DNA of 28,190 nt, taken from a virus. This document shows positions 14,707 through 28,008 of this stretch, piece by piece (positions within the stretch are counted from its first letter, which is position 1; each line of letters begins with the position of its first letter). Location of the stretch: IMG/VR virus record IMGVR_UViG_3300044712_000794, positions 1-28,190 of that record. One strand, 5' to 3'. The notes under the pieces were generated by a model, which worked only from the letters and a program-made list of their open reading frames with translations, did not search any database and was not told the origin of the DNA. Made by a program: the position numbers and the translations under genes.

Positions 14707-14904
14707 TCAGCCAACCAGTCGCCGGGATACAAAAGCGTTCAACGCATCTTCAGAAATCCTGCGATCCTTGTGAGATAGGAAAAGCACCTTTCCAAACTCT
14801 CCTTTTGCTACGTAGCGGCCCAAAGTGTTCAAGTGGATCCCTAAGCGATCGCACACCTCGCGGGAGGTTAGCCATCTGGCCGGGGTAGTGTTGCTGGTGC
14901 TCAT
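14707..14904 (-). CDS. excisionase-like / MerR-type HTH protein
   Basis: This is a 65-aa protein whose core (LTSREVCDRLGIHLNTLGRYVAKGEFGKVLFLSHKDRRISEDALNAFV) is an HTH_17 winged-helix domain like that of excisionases and small phage regulators. It could assist the integrase in excision, since no other Xis candidate is seen, or act as a transcription factor. It lies 3.5 kb from the integrase and on the opposite strand, in the early lytic transcript, where an excisionase would be expected on induction. The start overlaps the upstream TGA. Confidence 0.75.
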   Translation of the reverse strand: MSTSNTTPARWLTSREVCDRLGIHLNTLGRYVAKGEFGKVLFLSHKDRRISEDALNAFVSRRLVG

Positions 14905-15125
14905 GCTTTACAGGCCCAGCGGCAACATTCCCGAAAGACTTCCCGCGCCCGAAGCGGATCCGGAGTGCATGTCTTCATCTCCCCATTGACAGTGACCCTA
15001 TAAAAAAAAGAAACGGCGGGGGCGATCATGGAGAGAATAGCACCAGGGCGAAACTTCTCCAGGATCACACGATCCTTTCTAGTTGGGCGGACCTCCAAAG
15101 TGACAAGCTCTCCGGGCAGAGTCAT
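14901..15125 (-). CDS. small protein of unknown function with VSFFY motif
   Basis: This is a 74-aa protein. Its middle (APAVSFFYRVTVNG) resembles the end of the next upstream 44-aa protein (ATVSFFYGTVN), both encoded across an A8/T8 tract. The C-terminus has two Cys in RECCRWAC. It could be membrane-associated or a small regulator. Coupled by ATGA overlaps on both sides. Confidence 0.6.
   Translation of the reverse strand: MTLPGELVTLEVRPTRKDRVILEKFRPGAILSMIAPAVSFFYRVTVNGEMKTCTPDPLRAREVFRECCRWACKA
15002..15022. repeat. A8 tract repeat, copy 1 (VSFFY coding)
   Basis: Eight A followed by GAAACGGCGG on the plus strand. The copy at 15154-15177 has the same eight A and GAAACGG followed by a variant G-rich part. 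Both encode VSFFY on the minus strand. Confidence 0.55.
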
Positions 15126-15256
15126 TTCCTTCCCCTCCGGTTTACTGTTCCATAAAAAAAAGAAACGGTGGCGGTGGCAATGGGGCCGCTTAGCAGGGCA
15201 AAAGAAAGAAGGGCAGCCAGCCCCAGGAGTTCAAAGATAAAACCGTGTGCGCTCAT
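15122..15256 (-). CDS. 44-aa small membrane protein
   Basis: This short gene is coupled at both ends: its ATG overlaps the TGA of the RHH gene and its TGA overlaps the ATG of the next gene, with AGGGGAAGGAA just before that ATG. The peptide has one hydrophobic helix (LLGLAALLSFALLSG) and a basic C-terminus (NRRGRK), giving an N-out/C-in type single-pass prediction. No family recognised. Confidence 0.65.
   Translation of the reverse strand: MSAHGFIFELLGLAALLSFALLSGPIATATVSFFYGTVNRRGRK
15154..15177. repeat. A8 tract repeat, copy 2 (VSFFY coding)
   Basis: Second copy of the tract at 15002-15022, in the 44-aa membrane protein gene. Confidence 0.55.
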
Positions 15257-15441
15257 TTTTCAGACTCCTCATGATTAGCTTGTGACTCGGTTGTGCCACT
15301 TTCTGAATCCAAAAAATCACGGATTGCTATCCGAGCAATGTCCGAAGGTTTTAGCCAGTGTTTATCAGCCTCGGCGCGAAGTCGGGCCTTTAGTTCCACA
15401 GGGATTCTCATGGTTAAAGTTGCGTCTAGTTGGTCCGTCAT
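15253..15441 (-). CDS. ribbon-helix-helix regulator, leftward
   Basis: This is a 62-aa protein with an Arc/CopG-type RHH fold: a short strand (ATLTMRIP), then two helices (VELKARLRAEADKHW and KPSDIARIAIRDFLD), followed by an acidic tail. RHH proteins bind DNA as dimers through the strand. I chose the ATG at 15441 rather than 15480, because a consensus-like promoter and an operator-like repeat lie between the two. The first gene of the leftward early transcript, it is probably an autoregulator and repressor. A second RHH gene starts divergently 92 bp away. Confidence 0.82.
   Translation of the reverse strand: MTDQLDATLTMRIPVELKARLRAEADKHWLKPSDIARIAIRDFLDSESGTTESQANHEESEK
15290..15299. promoter_or_regulatory. 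partial operator-like site inside the RHH gene
   Basis: GTTGTGCCAC matches 10 of the 12 positions of the operator-like repeat found twice upstream. It is intragenic, so it may be a third weak site or chance. Confidence 0.35.
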
Positions 15442-15448
15442 GGGCTCT

Positions 15449-15476
15449 GTTGTAGCTTTGTTGTGCCACATGTCAA
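15449..15476 (-). promoter_or_regulatory. early leftward promoter
   Basis: On the minus strand: a perfect -35 TTGACA (15476-15471), a 16-bp spacer and TACAAC (15454-15449, 4 of 6 with TATAAT). Transcription would begin near 15442, at or next to the ATG at 15441, so the RHH message would be leaderless or nearly so. The operator-like repeat fills most of the spacer, an ideal place for repression. Confidence 0.65.
15460..15471. promoter_or_regulatory. operator-like repeat, copy 1
   Basis: GTTGTGCCACAT, with the near-palindromic core TGTGCCACA. It lies between the -35 and -10 of the leftward promoter. An identical 12-mer lies 54 bp to the right. Confidence 0.65.
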
Positions 15477-15513
15477 ACACAAATAAGCGAAAATCTTATG
15501 GCGGCGGAAATCC

Positions 15514-15525
15514 GTTGTGCCACAT
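15514..15525. promoter_or_regulatory. operator-like repeat, copy 2
   Basis: GTTGTGCCACAT, identical to 15460-15471 and in the same orientation. It ends 7 nt before the ATG of the rightward RHH gene. A weak -10-like TCTTAT for the rightward gene lies at 15494-15499, with no good -35. Confidence 0.65.
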
Positions 15526-15532
15526 TGAAGCC

Positions 15533-15784
15533 ATGAAGAGAGAAAGCACCTTTAACTTCCGACTTCCTCAATCATTAAAAGCCAGGCTTGATACGTTTTG
15601 TACCACGAGAGGAATAACAAAAGCGGATTTATGCGTAACGGCACTGGCTGAATTTCTGGACAGCATTGAGAAACTAGACCGCGCTAACCTTATCAGCCGA
15701 GTATATCCGCCCGTGAATATCGAAGCCATGAGAACGGCCGAAAACCCGACACAGAACAAGCCCGGCCGCTCCGCTGGCGCATAG
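15533..15784 (+). CDS. ribbon-helix-helix regulator, rightward
   Basis: This is an 83-aa protein with a second RHH domain (STFNFRLPQSLKARLDTFCTTRGITKADLCVTALAEFLDSI), followed by a flexible tail. The start at 15533 is the first ATG after the operator-like repeat; the frame is open further upstream but only through the divergent gene. Related in outline to the leftward RHH (LKARL, then a second helix ending EFLDS/DFLDS) but clearly different in sequence, so the pair can have distinct preferences. Probably the lysogeny-side repressor or its antagonist. Confidence 0.8.
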   Translation: MKRESTFNFRLPQSLKARLDTFCTTRGITKADLCVTALAEFLDSIEKLDRANLISRVYPPVNIEAMRTAENPTQNKPGRSAGA

Positions 15785-15818: not shown

Positions 15819-16124
15819 ATGACCGGCCCGACATCCTACATAGTCACAGCCTTGGCTGCAATATCACTAGTGGCCTGTAAGCCAGCGCCCCGTTATACGC
15901 TGCACCAGGGAACATATCCCGAAAACGGCAGAACTGCCACCTTGAGGATTGAAAACGCCAGCGGGGAAACTGAAATCCTGATGACCGCCAAAACATCTGA
16001 AGACCTCACTGTTCACTGGTGGCAACCGATAGCCGACCGGAAAACCGCGCTGAACATATTCAAAACCGACAAAGCAAACGCCAAACAAATGCAGGAAATC
16101 AAAGCCGGAACCTTTACCTACTGA
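15819..16124 (+). CDS. small lipoprotein
   Basis: This is a 101-aa protein with a lipoprotein signal peptide: hydrophobic stretch (YIVTALAAISLVAC) ending in a lipobox LVAC with Cys at residue 20. The mature part is polar with a strand-rich look (YTLHQGTYPENGRTATLRIENASGETEILMTAK). It would be anchored in the cell envelope of a lysogen. Lipoproteins in lysogeny operons commonly act in superinfection exclusion or host-surface change; that role here is inference from position. The leader is A/C-rich without SD. Confidence 0.75.
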   Translation: MTGPTSYIVTALAAISLVACKPAPRYTLHQGTYPENGRTATLRIENASGETEILMTAKTSEDLTVHWWQPIADRKTALNIFKTDKANAKQMQEIKAGTFTY

Positions 16125-16125
16125 C

Positions 16126-16401
16126 ATGACCAAGAAAGCAGAACGCACCGGAAACGGCCCCGGAAAGGGCAAGGCTTCCATATCCTCCACCCTATGCGTT
16201 GAGGTCCTTGAGGCCCTGGAATACCTAGCCAGCGAAAGCGGACTTTCCCGCGGGGGCTATATCAGCGCAGCCGTGACCACCGCGGTGCTGGCTGGCACCA
16301 CTTTTCCCCGCGTCACTGGCACCGGAAAGATTTCTCCTGCAACATTGAAGAAAGCACAGCGAGCCGTTGACCGCGCCCGCATGGATAGGCCGCGCAGCTA
16401 G
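16126..16401 (+). CDS. third RHH-like small protein
   Basis: This is a 91-aa basic protein. Its core ASISSTLCVEVLEALEYLASESGLSRGGYISAAVTTAVL fits an RHH layout (strand, helix, turn with SRG, helix), although the strand is less typical than in the other two. The tail is basic. One base separates it from the lipoprotein stop. Possibly a regulator or a DNA-binding accessory protein. Confidence 0.6.
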   Translation: MTKKAERTGNGPGKGKASISSTLCVEVLEALEYLASESGLSRGGYISAAVTTAVLAGTTFPRVTGTGKISPATLKKAQRAVDRARMDRPRS

Positions 16402-16531
16402 ATTTTAAGCCGCTTCGCAAGACATAAAAGATTTTTCAAGAATCCGCTTGCTTTCCAGTGGGATCTTATGGGAATGTAGAAGCCGAACAACGAACCGGAA
16501 GAGCCAACCGATTAAACGGGCAAATGACACA
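16402..16531 (+). other. 130-nt gap before the RadC-like gene
   Basis: No gene is seen. The frame of the RadC-like gene is open through part of it, but the sequence there has no family similarity. It holds the first copy of a 15-bp repeat (16496-16510). No convincing promoter or terminator is visible. Confidence 0.4.
16496..16510 (+). repeat. 15-bp leader repeat, copy 1
   Basis: CGGAAGAGCCAACCG, 21 nt before the ATG of the RadC-like gene. An identical copy lies at 17580-17594, 19 nt before the ATG of the 103-aa gene. Confidence 0.6.
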
Positions 16532-17002
16532 ATGCAGGCGCAAGAAACCACCTACGAGATCCGAGTCAGCCGAATCAACGAAACCCCCGGAACTGCAAAG
16601 ATCACCCGCGCAGACGTGGCGATTGAGTATTGGCATAACAAGATTGCAGCTTCTTCCTGGTATGACGGCGACAAGGAGATGCTTGTCGTTCTTCTCCTAG
16701 ACACTAGGCACAATGTCATTGCCCATAACCTCGTCAGCCTTGGCAGCCTCAATGAGACGGTTGCCCAGCCGAGAGAGATATTTCGCCCTGCGATTGTAGG
16801 CGCGGCCTATGCGCTGGTCGTCATGCACAACCACCCATCAGGAGACCCCCAGCCGAGCGAAGCGGATCGCAGACTCACCCGCAGGATCGCCGAGGCCGGG
16901 ACCCTGCTTCAAATGCCGCTTGTGGATCACGTCATCGTCGGAAAACAGCGCGATCCCGAAAAGGCACCTTACTTCAGCTTCCGCGAGGCCGGACTCCTTT
17001 GA
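16532..17002 (+). CDS. RadC-like JAB/MPN domain protein
   Basis: This 156-aa protein matches the RadC/JAB family of phages, plasmids and islands. The JAMM metal motif is complete: H99-x-H101-PSGDPQPSEAD with D112, and an upstream segment MLVVLLLDTRHNVIAHNLVSLGSLNETVAQPREIF. The biochemical role of RadC is not settled; members are often found beside anti-restriction and plasmid genes. I chose the ATG at 16532 (start MQAQETTYEIRVSR), since the 28 preceding codons show no similarity and lie across the leader repeat. No N-terminal HhH domain is present. Confidence 0.85.
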   Translation: MQAQETTYEIRVSRINETPGTAKITRADVAIEYWHNKIAASSWYDGDKEMLVVLLLDTRHNVIAHNLVSLGSLNETVAQPREIFRPAIVGAAYALVVMHNHPSGDPQPSEADRRLTRRIAEAGTLLQMPLVDHVIVGKQRDPEKAPYFSFREAGLL

Positions 17003-18546: not shown

Positions 18547-18571
18547 GGCTAGTGTGCAGCAAACCAATGGC

Positions 18572-19804
18572 ATGAGCACCGCTGAAAGAACTGAAATTAC
18601 TGTTACGCACAGAGGGAAAAGCTACACGCTTTGGCGGCGGGGAGACAATCTCTATCTCCGGCTTCGCCGGGATGGCCGGGCAATCTGGAAGACACTCAAG
18701 ACCAGCCTCAAAGATCAGGCCGTCAAGCAGGCCAAGGTGGAGTTGGATAAGCTAGAGCGCCATGACTGGAAACCTGCGCCCAAGAAAGCCGAGGCAACGA
18801 CTACCGGCTTGGCCACCATCGGTGAGATCCTGGACCGATACCTGGCAGCCGAGCGGGACATCGCCCACGCCACCAAGAATAACTACATCGCGGCCATGGA
18901 GACCCTGCTGCGCGTTGTCACTGGCAAGAAGGATCCCCGGGCGCTCTCCTCCTCGATCCTGACCGAGGAGACACTTGACAGCTACATCGACAAGGAGAGA
19001 GCAAAAGGCCGTCCCGATCACTCCATCCATGCCAGCCTCACTCAGGCCCGGTGTATCGTCAGCCCCAAGGTCATGACGATTTACAAGGGGCTCACCATCC
19101 CCAACCTGGACGGGTTCCGCTCCCCAAGGGATTTCAAGTCAGACAAGGGGGCGGGCTTCGTGAAATTCACACGCGAGGAGGTTATCGCCCTAGAAAGCAA
19201 GGCTGACGAACTTTTCCGATCCCGCTCCCCTCTCTGGATTGTCTATGTTTTCATGAGTCAGCTTGCCCTCCGTAACAAGGAAGTGAGCTTGGCTAAGTGG
19301 AGTGATCTTGTGGAGGGAGTCGAGTACCAGGATGGCAAGCCCATCACCAAGCGCTACCTCCGGGTCCAGGCCGAGTATGCCGAGGCCAAGCCAGCATTGA
19401 TTGAGATCAGTGACGCGCTCTGGACCGGACTCCAACACTACCGGCCAACTTGCACCCACCAAGAAGATCCTGCGCCATGCTCCCTCTGCACCTACATCCT
19501 CCCTGCTGCCACCGAGACCGACCGCAAAAATCTTTGCAAAAGGGACATTAACGACGCCTTCCGAAACCTCATCGTAGGTCGAAGGAAGATCGCCTATGAG
19601 CTTCGTCGCTGGGCAGGATCGAGAATCTACACGGTCCACGGTAGCGATGCCGCCCGGAATACCCTGCGCCATGCCTCCGTCGTGACTGTGGAGAAATACT
19701 ACGCCACAGAGCTGAAGGGAGTGAAGAGCGCCGGAGCTTCTGATCTCCGAGACATTTACGGACTTAACCCCACAGAAACCACCACCAACACCACCACCCC
19801 ATGA
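18572..19804 (+). CDS. int: tyrosine recombinase (phage integrase)
   Basis: This is a 410-aa integrase. The N-terminal arm-binding region is basic (YTLWRRGDNLYLRLRRDGR), a core-binding SAM-like domain spans about residues 85-180 (ILDRYLAAERDIAHATKNNYIAAMETLL), and the catalytic domain follows. Visible catalytic elements: R234 in ALRNKEVSL; box II with YELRR at 342-346, where the usual first His is Tyr and the Arg is kept at 345; a C-terminal TLRHASVVTVEKYY with the nucleophile at Y376 or Y377. An insert with C294, H296, C303 and C306 could bind zinc. I prefer the ATG at 18572 to a GTG at 18554, since the latter lies in the third arm-type repeat. The last residues (TTTNTTTP) are encoded by a direct repeat shared with a later intergenic region. 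Confidence 0.92.
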   Translation: MSTAERTEITVTHRGKSYTLWRRGDNLYLRLRRDGRAIWKTLKTSLKDQAVKQAKVELDKLERHDWKPAPKKAEATTTGLATIGEILDRYLAAERDIAHATKNNYIAAMETLLRVVTGKKDPRALSSSILTEETLDSYIDKERAKGRPDHSIHASLTQARCIVSPKVMTIYKGLTIPNLDGFRSPRDFKSDKGAGFVKFTREEVIALESKADELFRSRSPLWIVYVFMSQLALRNKEVSLAKWSDLVEGVEYQDGKPITKRYLRVQAEYAEAKPALIEISDALWTGLQHYRPTCTHQEDPAPCSLCTYILPAATETDRKNLCKRDINDAFRNLIVGRRKIAYELRRWAGSRIYTVHGSDAARNTLRHASVVTVEKYYATELKGVKSAGASDLRDIYGLNPTETTTNTTTP

Positions 19805-20510: not shown

Positions 20511-23500
20511 CTAGCGGCTCTTAGCCCATGCGGCCTTCATTCCGTCCGTGATCCCGTTGATCGTCCGGACAGCCCGCGCCCCGGCTGCAACATCACCCTT
20601 CTCGACCGAGGAGCGCATCGCCTCGATCTGAGGCCGGTAAATCTGGCCATACCATTGCTTGAGGACTGCAAAGCGGAGCGTCTGCTGCGGCGTCCGCTTC
20701 TCTGCTAGCTTCTGGAGCCATGCGTATTCCCTAGTGGCGGCGCGGGCATCTTCTGAGAGATCGACGCGGACCTGAGCGATAGCCTTCTCATCTCCGGCCA
20801 CCTCATCCCGGTCCCGCTCGGCCTCGCCTGCGTCAGTGATTTTGAGGAAACGATTGATCGGAGCCGTTGAGGAGATGGCAAACTCCTGGACCGTGTTGCT
20901 CTTCTCGTCGTAGCGCAGGAAGTTAGAGACACCCATCTTGTCCAAGGAGTGAATGATCATCTTCTTGGCGGCTGGCCAGCCACCGGCCTTCAGCTCGTCA
21001 TCAGTCAGGATGGCGCGGCCGCGGTGCTCGTCGATAGGATTCATCCCCATGGCATAGGCACCCCATTTAGCCGGGAGAGAGAGGAAGGGATTGAGGGAAG
21101 GCAGTTCACCACCTGGGACCGAGGCGATTTGGCCGAAGCCGATGCCCGTCTTCTCCCCATTGAGCTGGCGGAGCGTCGCGGTCAGGCCGTAATAGACCAT
21201 GCCATTGATGGCCCGGTCCACCTCATCGACCGGCCAGCGAAGATAGGCCGTCTTGGAGCCATAGTCCCCCGTGGTCGTGGTGCCGATAGGAATGGAGTGG
21301 TAGGCATAGACATCCCGATCCGGGATCTTGCGGAAGATGCCGGCCATGTCATCGCCAAAGAAACCTTCCCTCGCCAGGACCGTCATCACCGTGGTCAGGA
21401 ACCCCCCGAAGAAGAGATAGCTCAGGAGGTAATCAGCCTGCGACTTGCGCCCTTTCTCCCGTCCTGCGAGGAGCTTCATCGAGGACTCCCAGGAGCGCAT
21501 CGTGATATTGATGAAGGGGAAGAGAATGCCTGGGGTTGAGATACCGTTGCCCTTCTTCATGTAGTTAGGGACGCCCATGTAGTTACGGACATAGGCGGCC
21601 GCCTCACGAGTCGGCCATCCGAGATCCTTGGCGAGCACCTTGTAGGCCGAGACCTTGGGAAGCGCTTCCATGATTTGCCCGGCAAACTGGATCGAGCGGA
21701 GATAGGAGAGCACCGGCTTGACGAACCACTTACCGGCAAAGGCTGATTGCTCTTCTTCCGGGAGGATATTGTATTGGCGCAAGATGTCACCGAGAGCGCC
21801 GTGAGAGTCAGCCGTCGCGTAGAAGGACTCATGCGGCCCTACCATGGCTCCGTTTTGGAGCATCTCGATCAGGAGATCATCCGCCTGGCCGGAGATCCGG
21901 TTGACCAGGGGAGAGGATCCAATGTTGATCGGGATCGCGGCCAGCATCTTCCCGAGAGCCATGCCGATAGCGCTTCCGACATAGCTTCCGACTTGGCCGG
22001 AGGCGACGGCAGCGGCCGGACCACCGACGAATCCGATGGTCGATCCCACGGCCGTCCCCAGGACACCCCCTGCCGTCGTGGCCAGAGCCTCGCGGCCCTG
22101 CGGCTGGAGCATCGCAAGGGCAAGCTGGTAGGCCTGCTGCCCTAGGATCTTTCCACGGGTCTTATCGGGGGCATTCCGCATCGTGCGGAGCAGATCGCGC
22201 ATCGGCGAGAGCGCGAGCTGGAAGCTGGGATTGTATTTGATGATCAGCGGGTAGGCAGCGCTACTCCATAGGAAGGAGAGCGCCTGCATGAGTCCGTCCT
22301 GGTGGGCGGGACTCATCGAGTCAAAGACATCCGCATAGCGCTCCGGGAGGTGGACCCCGCGGAGCTTGCCATCGACGCGGTAGGTGAGCGTCTTCCACCC
22401 CACCTCACGGGTTGGGACCGGCACATTGCGGCGGCCATCCCATCGCATCTCGGCATCCCGGATCAGCCCGGAGAAGTTCTGCTTCATCCAGTTAAAGAAG
22501 GTGGTCTTTGCCTTGTTCGACTGTGCGGCGCGGCGCATCGCCGCCATCTTGAGGACGGATTGCGTGTAGGGATTGGCGATCTGGTCGAGCGTGCCGACTT
22601 GCTTCACGATCCCGGCCGGGACATAGCGATCCGCATACTTGAGCGGCGTGAAGGTGGCGTAGGCGTCCTTGTTCGGGACCAGGAGCGTGTCAAAGATTTC
22701 ACGGGAAATGATCCCGGCATCCACGGCATCCGAGAGGACAGAGAAAATCTTATCATGGAAGGCCTCTGCGGCCTGCTTGAGCGCGGCCCACTGCTCGGGG
22801 GACATGTCGGCCTGCTGCTGATCGAGGAGAGCCTGGGCGATGACGGGATCTTTGCCGTCCGGATTCGCCATGACGGTGCGGCCGGTGACTTCTATTTCGC
22901 TTTCCTGCTCCGTGGCTTTCCCGACTTGGCGCTCCACCTCGATCCGCTCATTGGCGATACGGTAGTTCTCCAGATAGATCCCGAGGTCATCATCAGTGAG
23001 ACCGACTGCCTGGAGAATCGGCGAGACCTTGGCCGTGATCTCCATGAGATCGGCCTGGACGGAGGAGTTGGCCAGCGGCATCTCCTCAAAGAGCCAGTCC
23101 ATCCGATCCTTGGCCGTGAGTGGCTGGCCGGACCGGCGCTTCTGGTGCATCAGCTCGACGGCAGGCTGTGCGTAGAAGTAATAGGCATCCTTGGCACGCT
23201 CCCACAGCCGGAGAGGAGACTTGGCCCATGCCTTCATGGCAGCGGAGCGCTTCTTGACCAGCTCGCTCGCTTTGGCATAGCCAGCCTTAGACTCGGCGAG
23301 GCGGGTCCGATTGACGGCCTCCGGACCCTTGGCCAGGAACGTCTGGATGGCCGTGATCGCCTCCTTGATCTCAGGCTTGCGCTCCACATTCAGCCAGAAG
23401 GCCTCCCAAAACGAAGGAGCCCTCAGCTCCAGGTCAGCCGGAGAGTTAAAGAGGACCGAGATGGCATCGGCGTAGAGCTCGGCGGAGCTCTTGCGATACT

Positions 23501-26500
23501 TCACATAGGAAGCCGGGGCAGAGATCTCGTCGAATGGCTTCCACCACTTGCTCAGTTCGATGAGTTCATCGCGGATCAGCTTGGCACTGGCTAGGTTGCG
23601 GCGGCGATACTCCATCCTCATGGCTGAGTCGATGGCTGCCTTGAGTTCTTGCGGAGTGGGATTGCGCCCGGCCGTGACAACTTCCTTCTCCACCGTCTGC
23701 GTGCCGATCTGCTCCTGCTTACCGAAGCGCTTGATCCGCTCGTCCACGATCCCTTTCATGGCCGACTTCACGATGGCCTTCTTGGTGGCGGCATCCTGCT
23801 TGGCAAACCAGTCGTAGAGCTCAGGAAGTTCGGTCCTGGCATTCAGGCCGAAGAGACTCTTCACATCCTCGGCAGAGATCCCGAGCGTGCGATAGACCGG
23901 CTCCTCGACAATGACCTTCTCGATTACTTCTCCGAGGGATCGGCGGAGCTCGGACTCGGCCTCGGCCGCAAGCTGGCGGCGCTCCTCGGCGGTGGTGATT
24001 TTGCCCGAGAGCTGCGGCTCCGGGGATGCCCCGAGGGGCATGGTTTGTTTGAGATAGCTCAGGAGAGACCCGAGACGGCCCAGGATATTCCCCCGCTTGA
24101 GGGACTCGTCGGGGAGGTAGTCAATCCAGTGACCAAGCTCATGCGCAAGCGTCATGGCTATTGATCGAGGATTGGCAAAGAGATCGGCTCGGATCGAGAT
24201 GCGGCCCTTGCCGACTCCCGTGAAGAGACCCAGGGATCTCATGCGGCGGCGGACCTCGGGAGACATGCCGGTGGCCTCGCGGAACCATCGGATCAGCTCC
24301 GGTGCCTCAATGGGGAGCACGCGGTCGGTGGCCCCCAGGACCTCCGGCATCTCCCAGCCTGGTCCACTTGCCATGACGGTGGCCTCCTTGGGAATGGAAG
24401 GACCGGCCTCAGCGGCAGCGGATCCACCAGCCTTGCCTTGCGGCCCATAGTCAGCGGTGCCTGAGAATCCCCCGGAGAACATGTCCCCCTGGGCGGCATC
24501 GGCCGCGGCCTTCTCCTGACGGAGACGCTCAGCCTCGGCCAGCTCGGCGGGTGTAGCCGACGTATCAACCTGGCCAGAGAGATTGAATGGCATCTCCTGA
24601 CCTCCAAAGAGATCATTCCCTGCGGTTTGGGTCGCCGGAGGGGGCGGCGGCGGTGCCATCTCGGCGGCTGCCTGCTCGGTCGAGACCCCGGAGACTTCGG
24701 CCATGATCTCAGGATCGGTGTAGAAAGACTTGTAGCGTGCAGCTAGGGCTTGCAGTTCGCCGACCCGCTTGAGGATCCCCTCCGGGTCCTTGACATTGAC
24801 ACCTAGCTTGGCGGCAGCCTCCGGACGCTTGGCGGCGGACTGGACCGCGGCGATCTGATCATTGATCTCGCGCACCTTGGCGGCGGCGGCCTTGGCGATT
24901 TCCTCTCCACGCTGGAGAGCGGCGTCACTGGTGCCGAAGAGATCCCCCTGGGATCCCTGGGCGGCCATCGCCTTGCTGGCCTTGATGTATCCCAGATAGC
25001 CGGAGATCACCTCCGGTGCCATCTTCTTGAGAGCGGCGGCGATCCCCGCCTGCTGAAGCTCTATGTCGTTGGGAGCGGCTGTTGCGATGGCGAGGGTTCG
25101 CGCCTCATTGATTCTTCCTGCTTGGTATGCAGCGTAGAGATCAGGTCCCGCACCCGTTCCAATTCTGAATCCGGCGCGGCCTTTAGCTCTCGATAAGAGT
25201 CCTCTCTGTGCTGCTTTATCTTCTGTAATCGAAGTGTTTCTGAAGTAGTTTGCATAGTCTTTAACCTCACCTTTCTCATCGAGGATGTTTAGCTCCGCGT
25301 CAAGCGACATTGCCATCGGCTTTGTGAATCCATCCGCCTCCCGCATGATATAGACCGGCACGCTATCCAGTCCGTTTCTCTTGGCCGCGTCAAAGCGATG
25401 CCTCCCTGAGATCAACTCATGATCGCCGTTATTGCGCTGCCAAACCATGAGATGCCCAAAAGCCCGCATGTCGATATTGCCTTCGATCTGCTGGCCCCGC
25501 ACGACGCCGGTATCCGGATCGGCATTCTCCTTAAAGTTAGGCACATCCTCTGAGAGCTTGATGTCAGAGACCTTGAGCTTTGATTCCGTGTAGGGAATGG
25601 AAGCCCCCCCGGTTGTCTCAGGATCAGTGTATCCTGTGATCGGCTCCAACTCTGCCAAGTCATCGGCCGGAGCTTGCGACTTAGCAGGATCGACTTGCGA
25701 CATTGCAGCCGGAGCTTGCGACTTAGCGGGAAATTCTTGCCCATGAACCGTCGGAATCGACAAATTTCCGTCGATTGTTGGAGTTAGCGGGGCTGGATTG
25801 GCCGGTGAAGCGAGGGCTGCGCGGCCCGGCATGGCAATCACGCCATCGGGAGTATTGGCCGGGGCGGCATTGTTCCGATCCATGGTGAAGGCACTACTTG
25901 GAGCATCCTCCATGGGGATCAGCTCACCCAGGTCAGCGGGAGCAGCAGCGGGTGGCTGTCCCGGCAATCCATCGACTCTCGCCCCTCGACTCTCGACTCC
26001 ATCTCCCAGCGCCACTTCGGTCTTGAGCGCTTCCGGTTTGCCCAGGAAGGAAGTTCCCTGCATCCGCATGGTTCCGCGGGCCTGAGGACCATACTCACCA
26101 CGGACAGACTCGGCCACCTTGAGTGCCGTCGTGACGGCTTCGTTATCCATGGCCGAGAGAGATTCCCCGGCCTGCTTCTTGGCAATGAGCCCCTGAATGT
26201 CTCCGAGCTCATAGCGCTTGTTCTGGACCGTGAGTCCGGAGAGCAGCGCTCCCATGACCGCAGACTGGAAGGAGCCCTGCCAGGTCGGACCCTCCGGCGT
26301 CTCATCTCCTGAAGCAAAAGCCTGATCGGCTAGCTTCCAGGTAATATCGGTAGCGGCACCTGTACCGGCTCCGAGCCCGACGACCTTCCCTGCGAACTTG
26401 GCGGCTTCCAGTGCTCCCTTGGTCTCCCGCACGAGCTGAATCCCCTTGATCAGGTTGTAGGGTGCGGCGGGGGCGGTGATGGCGATGGATGCCAACTCTC

Positions 26501-27188
26501 CCGCGGCATTGTATCCTGGTCGGGCTTGGCTTGCGGAAAGGTAGCTGGAGAACTCCGAGTCATTCTCGGCCAGCGTCTTGTAGAGTGCATCGTATCCACG
26601 ACCGGCTGCATAGCCTCCCGCGATTCCTCCGACAGTCCCGGTGGCCAAGGCGGCTGGACCGGCAGCCATTCCTGCGACAGCAGGGATCGCTGCGCCTCCC
26701 ATGAATCCCATCGTGACAGCCCCACCTCGGCCGAGCCCGTAGAGGAGAGCTTTCCCCTCGGGGGATGACCCGGCGGCGGCTTCCAGATCGCGGCGTCGTC
26801 GGGCGGTCTCCTCGATCTTTGGTGCATTGGATGATAGTTTGCTGAAGGTTTGCTGATCGATCAGACCGGAGGCGTAGGCGCTCTCCACTCCCTTGCCATA
26901 GCGGAGGGGGTCGATTTCAATACCGGCAGAAGTGACCTTGAAGGGCTCCGACTTCTCATTCCAGCGATTAGCCGGGGAGAGCGGGTCGGTCCCTTCGAGT
27001 GCGAAGCCAGCTTTGGATGGATCGAGCGGAGCGCCCGTGCGATCCACGGCGACCAGGGGAGGGTTCTCCCTGGCGTCGATAGGAGCCACAAACTCCAGAT
27101 CCATGAGAGGATCGGGAGCGGATGACTCCTGTGTGATCGGTCCGACGTAATCGAGCGCGGCCAACTCGTCCTGCGCGGGAGAGGCCAT
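20511..27188 (-). CDS. giant polyvalent internal-virion/ejection protein (ParB-like and HExxH domains)
   Basis: This is a 2225-aa protein. Segments in order: an acidic N-terminus with short repeats (LAALDYVGPI, LMDLEFVAPI); a Gly/Ala-rich hydrophobic region at about 148-200; a low-complexity Ala/Pro linker at about 375-520 with a 14-residue tandem repeat (AKSQAPA); a ParB-like nuclease domain at about 525-660 with ISGRHRFDAAKRNG (H597); coiled coil; a zinc-peptidase-like HELGHWID at 1016-1023 with a possible third ligand E1237 in SAELYADAISVLFNSP; a long alpha-helical region with LQLALSPMRDLLRTMRNAP; a glycine zipper at about 1700-1746; a transmembrane-like helix at about 1918-1936; and a C-terminal helical domain. 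Phage polyvalent proteins of this type are packaged and ejected with DNA and often carry anti-defence effectors. I chose the ATG at 27188, 4 nt after the upstream stop. No sequence break is apparent. Confidence 0.82.
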   Translation of the reverse strand: MASPAQDELAALDYVGPITQESSAPDPLMDLEFVAPIDARENPPLVAVDRTGAPLDPSKAGFALEGTDPLSPANRWNEKSEPFKVTSAGIEIDPLRYGKGVESAYASGLIDQQTFSKLSSNAPKIEETARRRRDLEAAAGSSPEGKALLYGLGRGGAVTMGFMGGAAIPAVAGMAAGPAALATGTVGGIAGGYAAGRGYDALYKTLAENDSEFSSYLSASQARPGYNAAGELASIAITAPAAPYNLIKGIQLVRETKGALEAAKFAGKVVGLGAGTGAATDITWKLADQAFASGDETPEGPTWQGSFQSAVMGALLSGLTVQNKRYELGDIQGLIAKKQAGESLSAMDNEAVTTALKVAESVRGEYGPQARGTMRMQGTSFLGKPEALKTEVALGDGVESRGARVDGLPGQPPAAAPADLGELIPMEDAPSSAFTMDRNNAAPANTPDGVIAMPGRAALASPANPAPLTPTIDGNLSIPTVHGQEFPAKSQAPAAMSQVDPAKSQAPADDLAELEPITGYTDPETTGGASIPYTESKLKVSDIKLSEDVPNFKENADPDTGVVRGQQIEGNIDMRAFGHLMVWQRNNGDHELISGRHRFDAAKRNGLDSVPVYIMREADGFTKPMAMSLDAELNILDEKGEVKDYANYFRNTSITEDKAAQRGLLSRAKGRAGFRIGTGAGPDLYAAYQAGRINEARTLAIATAAPNDIELQQAGIAAALKKMAPEVISGYLGYIKASKAMAAQGSQGDLFGTSDAALQRGEEIAKAAAAKVREINDQIAAVQSAAKRPEAAAKLGVNVKDPEGILKRVGELQALAARYKSFYTDPEIMAEVSGVSTEQAAAEMAPPPPPPATQTAGNDLFGGQEMPFNLSGQVDTSATPAELAEAERLRQEKAAADAAQGDMFSGGFSGTADYGPQGKAGGSAAAEAGPSIPKEATVMASGPGWEMPEVLGATDRVLPIEAPELIRWFREATGMSPEVRRRMRSLGLFTGVGKGRISIRADLFANPRSIAMTLAHELGHWIDYLPDESLKRGNILGRLGSLLSYLKQTMPLGASPEPQLSGKITTAEERRQLAAEAESELRRSLGEVIEKVIVEEPVYRTLGISAEDVKSLFGLNARTELPELYDWFAKQDAATKKAIVKSAMKGIVDERIKRFGKQEQIGTQTVEKEVVTAGRNPTPQELKAAIDSAMRMEYRRRNLASAKLIRDELIELSKWWKPFDEISAPASYVKYRKSSAELYADAISVLFNSPADLELRAPSFWEAFWLNVERKPEIKEAITAIQTFLAKGPEAVNRTRLAESKAGYAKASELVKKRSAAMKAWAKSPLRLWERAKDAYYFYAQPAVELMHQKRRSGQPLTAKDRMDWLFEEMPLANSSVQADLMEITAKVSPILQAVGLTDDDLGIYLENYRIANERIEVERQVGKATEQESEIEVTGRTVMANPDGKDPVIAQALLDQQQADMSPEQWAALKQAAEAFHDKIFSVLSDAVDAGIISREIFDTLLVPNKDAYATFTPLKYADRYVPAGIVKQVGTLDQIANPYTQSVLKMAAMRRAAQSNKAKTTFFNWMKQNFSGLIRDAEMRWDGRRNVPVPTREVGWKTLTYRVDGKLRGVHLPERYADVFDSMSPAHQDGLMQALSFLWSSAAYPLIIKYNPSFQLALSPMRDLLRTMRNAPDKTRGKILGQQAYQLALAMLQPQGREALATTAGGVLGTAVGSTIGFVGGPAAAVASGQVGSYVGSAIGMALGKMLAAIPINIGSSPLVNRISGQADDLLIEMLQNGAMVGPHESFYATADSHGALGDILRQYNILPEEEQSAFAGKWFVKPVLSYLRSIQFAGQIMEALPKVSAYKVLAKDLGWPTREAAAYVRNYMGVPNYMKKGNGISTPGILFPFINITMRSWESSMKLLAGREKGRKSQADYLLSYLFFGGFLTTVMTVLAREGFFGDDMAGIFRKIPDRDVYAYHSIPIGTTTTGDYGSKTAYLRWPVDEVDRAINGMVYYGLTATLRQLNGEKTGIGFGQIASVPGGELPSLNPFLSLPAKWGAYAMGMNPIDEHRGRAILTDDELKAGGWPAAKKMIIHSLDKMGVSNFLRYDEKSNTVQEFAISSTAPINRFLKITDAGEAERDRDEVAGDEKAIAQVRVDLSEDARAATREYAWLQKLAEKRTPQQTLRFAVLKQWYGQIYRPQIEAMRSSVEKGDVAAGARAVRTINGITDGMKAAWAKSR
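25666..25688. repeat. 23-bp tandem repeat in the giant gene, copy 1
   Basis: This matches 25708-25730 with one difference (GCAGG versus GCGGG at the end). The period is 42 bp (14 residues), encoding AKSQAPA units in the linker before the ParB-like domain. Confidence 0.75.
25708..25730. repeat. 23-bp tandem repeat in the giant gene, copy 2
   Basis: Second unit of the repeat at 25666-25688. Confidence 0.75.
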
Positions 27189-27192
27189 GTGA

Positions 27193-28008
27193 TTAGTCCG
27201 TGATGAGGACCTCGGCCCCACTCTTAGTGCGATAGCGGCCTGGCTTCATGGCGCGGCCATACTTGGACTGGTAATCAGCGGAGGACATGGAGATGGGAGT
27301 TGGTGCTGGAGTCGGCTCGGGAGCAGCAGTTTCCGGTGCCGGGGTGGGCATGGGGGTAGAAAGGAAAGCGCCATCCGGGGTGGGAGTGACCTGCGGCGTA
27401 GGCGACGGTGCCGGAGTAGCGGCTGGAGCTGGGACCTGGGAGCTGGGAGCTGGGGATCCATGCAGGACCGTCGTTGGGTCCATCATTGCGGAAAGCTGGG
27501 CCTGTTTGATGGCGATGTCTTTCTGGTAAGAAGCATCGGAGCGATACCACGGCGCTCCACTCGCCTGCATCTTTGCGATGTCTTGCTGAAGCTGGGCCTG
27601 CTGCATGGCCACAACAGAGTCTTGCGTATCCTTGGTGGCAGCTTTGATTGGTTTCCCCGTCTGCTCATCCCAGGCCGTGATTGCTTTTCCGGTCATCGTG
27701 TCGATCAGCTTTACCGTCCCATCAGCGGATGTAATACGTTCAAACTTTGGCGCTCCGGAATCAGGAAGTAGCTGCCAAGATCCAGCCGACTGGCGATACA
27801 TCGGAACCGTGCTTCCGTCAGGCCGAGGAACATCCCGTACTTCAGGCTCCATTCCTGGCCGCATTTGTTTCACAGCCTCCGTCTGATATTGCTTGTAGAG
27901 GGCGATGTCGGCAGCGAGTTCCTGCTTGGTCGGCTTGTAGCCGGGCTGACGCCCTAGCATCGTGCGGCCAAAGGTCCGCAAGTCCATGATCTGAGGTTGA
28001 TCGGCCAT
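27193..28008 (-). CDS. putative virion protein with Pro/Thr-rich linker
   Basis: This is a 271-aa protein. The N-terminal part (MADQPQIMDLRTFGRTMLGRQPGYKPTKQELAADIALYKQYQ) is helical, the middle contains a glutamine-rich coiled coil (MQQAQLQQDIAKMQ), a long Pro/Ala/Thr linker (APAATPAPSPTPQVTPTP) follows, and the C-terminus is a small domain (DYQSKYGRAMKPGRYRTKSGAEVLITD). The position just upstream of the giant protein in the same operon suggests a structural or ejection protein. No exact family recognised. Confidence 0.72.
   Translation of the reverse strand: MADQPQIMDLRTFGRTMLGRQPGYKPTKQELAADIALYKQYQTEAVKQMRPGMEPEVRDVPRPDGSTVPMYRQSAGSWQLLPDSGAPKFERITSADGTVKLIDTMTGKAITAWDEQTGKPIKAATKDTQDSVVAMQQAQLQQDIAKMQASGAPWYRSDASYQKDIAIKQAQLSAMMDPTTVLHGSPAPSSQVPAPAATPAPSPTPQVTPTPDGAFLSTPMPTPAPETAAPEPTPAPTPISMSSADYQSKYGRAMKPGRYRTKSGAEVLITD

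Follow-up and report, generated by a model that had tools for sequence, protein, structure and literature searches.

A divergent pair of ribbon-helix-helix genes as a putative lysis-lysogeny switch of a tailed phage

The divergent gene pair and its flanking operons

The window, the whole stretch of DNA analysed here, spans all 28,190 bases of one IMG/VR virus record. It contains two small genes back to back with 91 bp between their starts (15442-15532), as described in an earlier note on this DNA, and both genes encode predicted ribbon-helix-helix (RHH) proteins. The left gene starts at the conserved ATG 15441; a longer version beginning at GTG 15480 is improbable because this codon would lie upstream of the start point of the gene's own predicted promoter, P_L.

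Table 1 Genes, putative operators and predicted promoters of the locus (window coordinates).
Feature	Position	Strand	Description
Excisionase-like gene (HTH_17)	14707-14904	minus	Pfam HTH_17, 1e-9; TIGR01764 excisionase family, 2.3e-6, 27.9 of 28.8 bits
Left RHH gene	15253-15441	minus	ORF; 62 aa, MTDQLDATLTMRIP...; first in leftward (lytic/replication) operon
Putative operator O1	15292-15300		Window copy TGTGCCACT; the 7 relatives carry exact TGTGCCACA; intragenic in left RHH gene
Candidate promoter P_R	15430-15458	plus	-35 TTGGTC (15430-15435), spacer 17, -10 TAGCTT (15453-15458)
Predicted promoter P_L	15449-15476	minus	-35 TTGACA (15471-15476), spacer 16, -10 TACAAC (15449-15454)
Putative operator O2	15462-15470		TGTGCCACA; in P_L spacer and at predicted P_R start point
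Block GTCAAACACAAATAAGC	15472-15488		Near-invariant; a single record of 8 shows a single change
Putative operator O3	15516-15524		TGTGCCACA; 8 bp ahead of right RHH start codon
Right RHH gene	15533-15784	plus	ORF; 83 aa, MKRESTFNFRLP...; first in rightward (lysogeny) operon
Lipoprotein-like gene	15819-16124	plus	Lipobox-like N terminus; phrog_1119 (Cor family) matched weakly, E 0.039
Tyrosine recombinase (integrase)	18575-19804	plus	ORF 18554-19804 in its longest reading; identified via G006 homologue

At an E-value of 0.1, Pfam gave no RHH match for either protein, HMMER filters discarding weak matches, and the RHH assignment comes from profile matches rather than from Pfam. The left protein matched the ORF56-family RHH copy-control profile (E 2.4e-6, below cut-off) and, in the PDB, ORF56 of pRN1 (E 1.2e-4), while the right protein matched the Arc-like repressor phrog_582 (E 3e-4) and the CopG-like phrog_7325 (E 2e-4) in PHROGs, a RelB-like antitoxin profile (E 4.4e-4, below cut-off) and ORF56 (E 0.0076). 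AlphaFold models of the two proteins reached only modest confidence, with a mean pLDDT of 72.8 and 67.5; they have helices at residues 13-26/30-57 and 15-28/32-46 and a ribbon strand that is not resolved in the monomers. Structural matches to the right model were mainly RHH proteins (CopG, ORF56, TacA and Arc), all weak with no E below 1; the left model, the less confident of the two, matched one RHH structure weakly and gave no significant match in Foldseek. A family-to-family hhalign comparison aligned left with right over 41 residues at a probability of 96.6%, with 34% identity over the RHH domain, and the predicted ribbons have T-x-[N/T]-x-R in common, differing at one position (T-x-N-x-R vs T-x-T-x-R). 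These profile matches and models point to membership of both proteins in the RHH (MetJ/Arc) superfamily.

Relatives were sought in 2.9 million viral contigs, with each RHH protein and then the alignments as queries. The divergent pair was found in 8 virus contigs besides the window, two of which (those of L026 and L027) are near-identical, leaving seven independent relatives: G001 (38,947 bp), G002 (41,189), G003 (20,044), G004 (40,709), G005 (26,659), G006 (36,075) and G007 (9,280). These seven, three of which (G003, G004 and G005) are close to one another with left genes 94-99% identical, form together with the window the 8 records aligned for sites, promoters and codons. The left and right RHH genes always occur together, since the two family searches each gave the same eight contigs. 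Between the window and the distant relative G006, the right and left RHH proteins are 56% and 66% identical, against 28-44% for neighbouring genes. Relatives of either protein were absent from the phage isolates and plasmids searched by tblastn, and the isolate nearest by terminase, phage C75C1 (32%), is annotated with neither switch nor integrase.

The flanks bear out the expectation of early genes to the left and lysogeny-like genes to the right. Leftward, with short overlaps, the left RHH gene is followed by a 44-aa membrane-peptide ORF, a 74-aa protein, the excisionase-like gene and a 311-aa protein, and further on by a primosomal protein, DnaB, DNA polymerase A and a cytosine methylase. 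Rightward, the right RHH gene is followed by the lipoprotein-like gene, whose product may act in superinfection exclusion, a possible further RHH gene, a RadC-like gene and the tyrosine recombinase. The recombinase was missed by Pfam and PHROGs and is recognisable only through its relative in G006, a protein that passes the Phage_integrase cut-off and with which it has 33% identity (E 1e-54). The integrase suggests lysogeny, although no integrated copy was found in 84,980 species genomes; searches of the genome collection with the 311-aa neighbour and the right-RHH alignment gave no match. The relative G004 encodes a terminase, portal, SU10-like capsid, holin and endolysin.

Several further features were observed. 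The 44-aa ORF (15122-15256, minus strand), a single membrane span overlapping the left RHH stop (ATGA) and the next start codon, has counterparts in relatives, whose left RHH gene is likewise followed by a short hydrophobic ORF, and it could encode a membrane toxin or exclusion peptide. Two adjacent small leftward genes share, at equivalent places, a direct repeat with an A8 run (SFFY motif), ATAAAAAAAAGAAACGG (15000-15031 and 15152-15183), which may be a slippage site or a duplicated gene end. The conserved 91-aa protein at 16126-16401 (plus strand) has a weak CopG match (E 0.054) and is possibly a third RHH regulator; being unrelated to the pair by profile, it was left out as a part of the switch. 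One rightward slot is occupied in the window by a RadC-like JAB gene (16448-17002, plus) and in G001 by an ArdC anti-restriction gene (L034 13283-14155, plus); early genes for evading host defences may be exchanged here. A protein of 2,236 aa with no Pfam match (20511-27221, minus) takes up about a quarter of the contig and is kept in G002 and G004. No tRNA genes were found in the relatives' contigs scanned or within 3 kb around the pair, and Rfam gave no match.

Operator-like sites and overlapping promoters

The gap contains two exact copies of a 12-mer, GTTGTGCCACAT, at 15460-15471 and 15514-15525, in agreement with the earlier note, which had described them as having the same orientation. 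Both gap copies stand, but a third was overlooked, a one-mismatch copy at 15290 within the left gene, and the orientation carries no weight because the 9-bp core, TGTGSCACA, is palindromic with C or G at its centre among relatives. The three putative operators, O1, O2 and O3, occupy matching positions in all 8 aligned records, with spacings of 54-55 bp (O2-O3) and 169-171 bp (O1-O2). The core is exact at O2 in every record, at O1 in seven (the window has TGTGCCACT) and at O3 in seven (G002 has TGTGCTACA). At O2 and O3 the four-base arms stay constant and only C or G, depending on the record, is found at the centre, the pattern that recognition of a palindrome by a symmetric dimer would produce.

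The search for the motif in the genome and its relatives that the note had proposed found the core at the same places in 8/8 records and nowhere else in their 239 kb: all 22 exact cores fall in this region, against about 2.2 expected in total under a first-order Markov model, and TGTGNCACA has 0 occurrences outside the three sites. Chance is thus excluded for the sites. A search of the whole viral collection for TGTGSCACA-N45-TGTGSCACA returned 11 stretches, four of them known relatives; the others, which lack a divergent RHH pair, were set aside as coincidences.

The intragenic site O1 is under selection as DNA, because synonymous change is frozen exactly at its codons. In the left RHH protein, 27 residues (M and W excluded) are invariant among the 8 records, and the codon is constant at only two of them, the adjacent G49 (GGC) and T50 (ACA), which spell O1; for two frozen codons to coincide with this pair by chance, P = 1/351. 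With the window, G001, G006 and G007 alone (67-78% DNA identity), the same two codons are frozen, of 28 invariant residues. A promoter overlapping O1 was rejected, as TACAAC stands at the P_L distance in G006 and is absent in the others.

The predicted leftward promoter P_L has O2 in its 16-nt spacer, between TTGACA and TACAAC, and the second gap copy lies just ahead of the rightward start, both as the note had placed them. All 8 records have the arrangement TTGAC[AT]-TGTGSCACA-N7-TACAA[AC]; in 478 kb of strand, TTGAC-N17-TACAA is confined to the eight P_L places, and P_L has the highest leftward promoter score on the alignment. Its -10 element ends 7 nt from the left-gene ATG (6-8 nt across records), so the predicted start point falls on or beside the ATG and the message is apparently leaderless. 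A strict promoter scan found no promoter, TACAAC being without the final T.

Rightward, P_R was the best of 269 aligned positions by a sigma-70 score over the alignment (mean 5.26 vs 1.99 for the next), with a TTGATC-like -35 and a TAGCTT-like -10 element; it is a candidate only, being weak in G002 and G006 and having its -35 element in left-gene codons. An alternative -10 element, TCTTAT (15494-15499), was not preferred (mean 1.9 vs 5.3 for P_R). If P_R is right, the -10 elements of P_L and P_R overlap and O2 would lie over the P_R start point. Beside O2, the block GTCAAACACAAATAAGC is near-invariant amid diverging DNA, a conservation that exceeds what the P_L -35 element needs, and it may be an activator site or a leader RNA element.

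A putative all-RHH switch and its alternatives

On this sequence evidence, we consider it probable that the locus is the primary lysis-lysogeny immunity region of a temperate tailed phage, with two opposing regulators that are both RHH proteins and a single operator class. This reading draws on the position of the pair between the excisionase-like gene and the integrase operon, and agrees with the all-RHH switch suggested by the earlier note: the pair and the sites are conserved together, an integrase is present and no refuting test succeeded. The note had named a separate CI-like repressor gene outside the window as what would count against it; HTH_3, S24 and CI_repr had no match in any record searched, including the 39-41 kb relatives with terminase, portal, capsid and lysis genes, and a repressor of a fold outside these tested families could have been missed. 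For the fuller proposal, in which two paralogous RHH proteins, three operators with the same core (one intragenic) and mutually exclusive overlapping promoters are the sole primary switch, we see the chances as evenly balanced.

The left RHH protein, heading the lytic/replication operon, would hold the Cro-like position, and the right RHH protein, heading the operon with the lipoprotein-like gene and the integrase, the CI-like position of a lysogeny repressor. Overlap of the -10 elements would let polymerase use only one of the two promoters at once. An RHH dimer at O2 would block P_L from within its spacer and P_R at its start point, and since O2 would thereby repress both promoters, extra logic would be needed from O1, O3, affinities or activation. 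O3 and O1 would each act on one direction, as road blocks or through looping: O3 on the rightward one, since it covers the translation start region about 50 bp downstream of the P_R start point, and O1 on the leftward one, about 145 bp downstream of the P_L start point. Differing occupancy by the two proteins would then decide which operon wins. We infer operator binding, mutual repression, the regulators' roles and lysogeny, and, from their relatedness and similar ribbons, that left and right RHH read the same core.

The assumption of a common core can be questioned, as one RHH protein alone might read TGTGSCACA and repress, the other having lost this specificity and being an antirepressor (for example through mixed dimers) or reading another element such as GTCAAACACAAATAAGC. 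There is one conserved operator class for two proteins whose ribbons differ at one position (T-N-R vs T-T-R), the operators of P22 mnt and arc differ from each other, Mnt and Arc each using its own, and the P_L -35 element accounts for just part of the near-invariant 17-nt block. We nevertheless regard this as rather unlikely, given that the proteins are related, with 34% identity over the RHH domain and nearly identical ribbon residues, and that the same core serves both promoters. Alternatively, both proteins may damp early transcription in a timing circuit while another regulator decides between lysis and lysogeny, which would fit the RadC-like or ArdC anti-restriction genes, useful on entry, in the rightward operon, the failure to find a lysogen in the genome search and the many phage proteins without a family. 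The place of the pair between the excisionase-like gene and the integrase operon is, however, that of an immunity region, and HTH_3, S24 and CI_repr candidates for such a regulator are absent from every record, making a timing role distinctly unlikely.

A role in plasmid-type copy control or partition, or as a toxin-antitoxin pair, suggested by the best profiles (ORF56 copy control and RelB-like antitoxin, both below cut-off) and by the membrane-peptide ORF that overlaps the left-gene stop as in antitoxin-toxin operons, seems very improbable: neither RHH gene has a known toxin family beside it, no partition motor family was found, the weak matches belonging to DnaB, and an integrase is present whereas no plasmid searched carries a relative. 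Taking these observations together, we favour the primary switch with two opposing RHH regulators.

Relation to known regulatory systems

Proteins of lysis-lysogeny switches are usually of a fold other than RHH. The comparison with Arc and Mnt of phage P22 drawn in the earlier note is apt: the immI region likewise has a divergent RHH pair, with 90 bp between the starts of mnt (38245, leftward) and arc (38336, rightward) vs 91 bp here, and P22 Mnt and the right RHH protein have the ribbon FNFR-[LM]-P in common. Their sequence relation is marginal, Mnt ranking second of about 4,000 sequences including shuffles at 8.3 bits, and Arc was not distinguished. Repression in P22 is mutual, Arc acting on mnt and Mnt on arc-ant (PMC11016777). 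P22 immI has two different operators and an antirepressor gene, ant, whereas here one operator class and no such gene are seen; moreover, immI is secondary to the primary C2/Cro, while no HTH_3/S24 protein was found in the records here.

The arrangement is also reminiscent of lambda CI/Cro, with two related regulators, three like operators, divergent promoters and opposing operons. Lambda cI mRNA from PRM is leaderless, like the predicted P_L message. By contrast with lambda, the regulators here are RHH rather than HTH proteins, the boxes are 9 bp long, one operator is intragenic and there is no S24 self-cleaving domain. In the archaeal virus SSV1, the RHH protein F55 maintains lysogeny by occupying its own promoter as well as early ones, and an opposing RHH protein is not described there (PMC5569661). 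That system differs in its single RHH regulator, its tandem-repeat sites and its archaeal promoters. ORF56 of pRN1 and CopG are the closest solved relatives of the RHH domain here, but they are single proteins that control plasmid replication, and the scores here fall below the family cut-off.

A literature search that covered few subscription journals turned up no bacteriophage whose primary switch consists of RHH proteins on shared operators, which is weak evidence of novelty. Phage immunity is usually sought through HTH repressors, and phages without them are easily labelled lytic or 'repressor unknown'. If our reading is true, a divergent RHH pair with TGTGSCACA sites would be a searchable signature, and the locus, with proteins of 62 and 83 aa and three sites of 9 bp, would offer a very small system for direct tests of occupancy and looping. 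It would also mean that circuit logic of the CI/Cro type arose on another DNA-binding fold.
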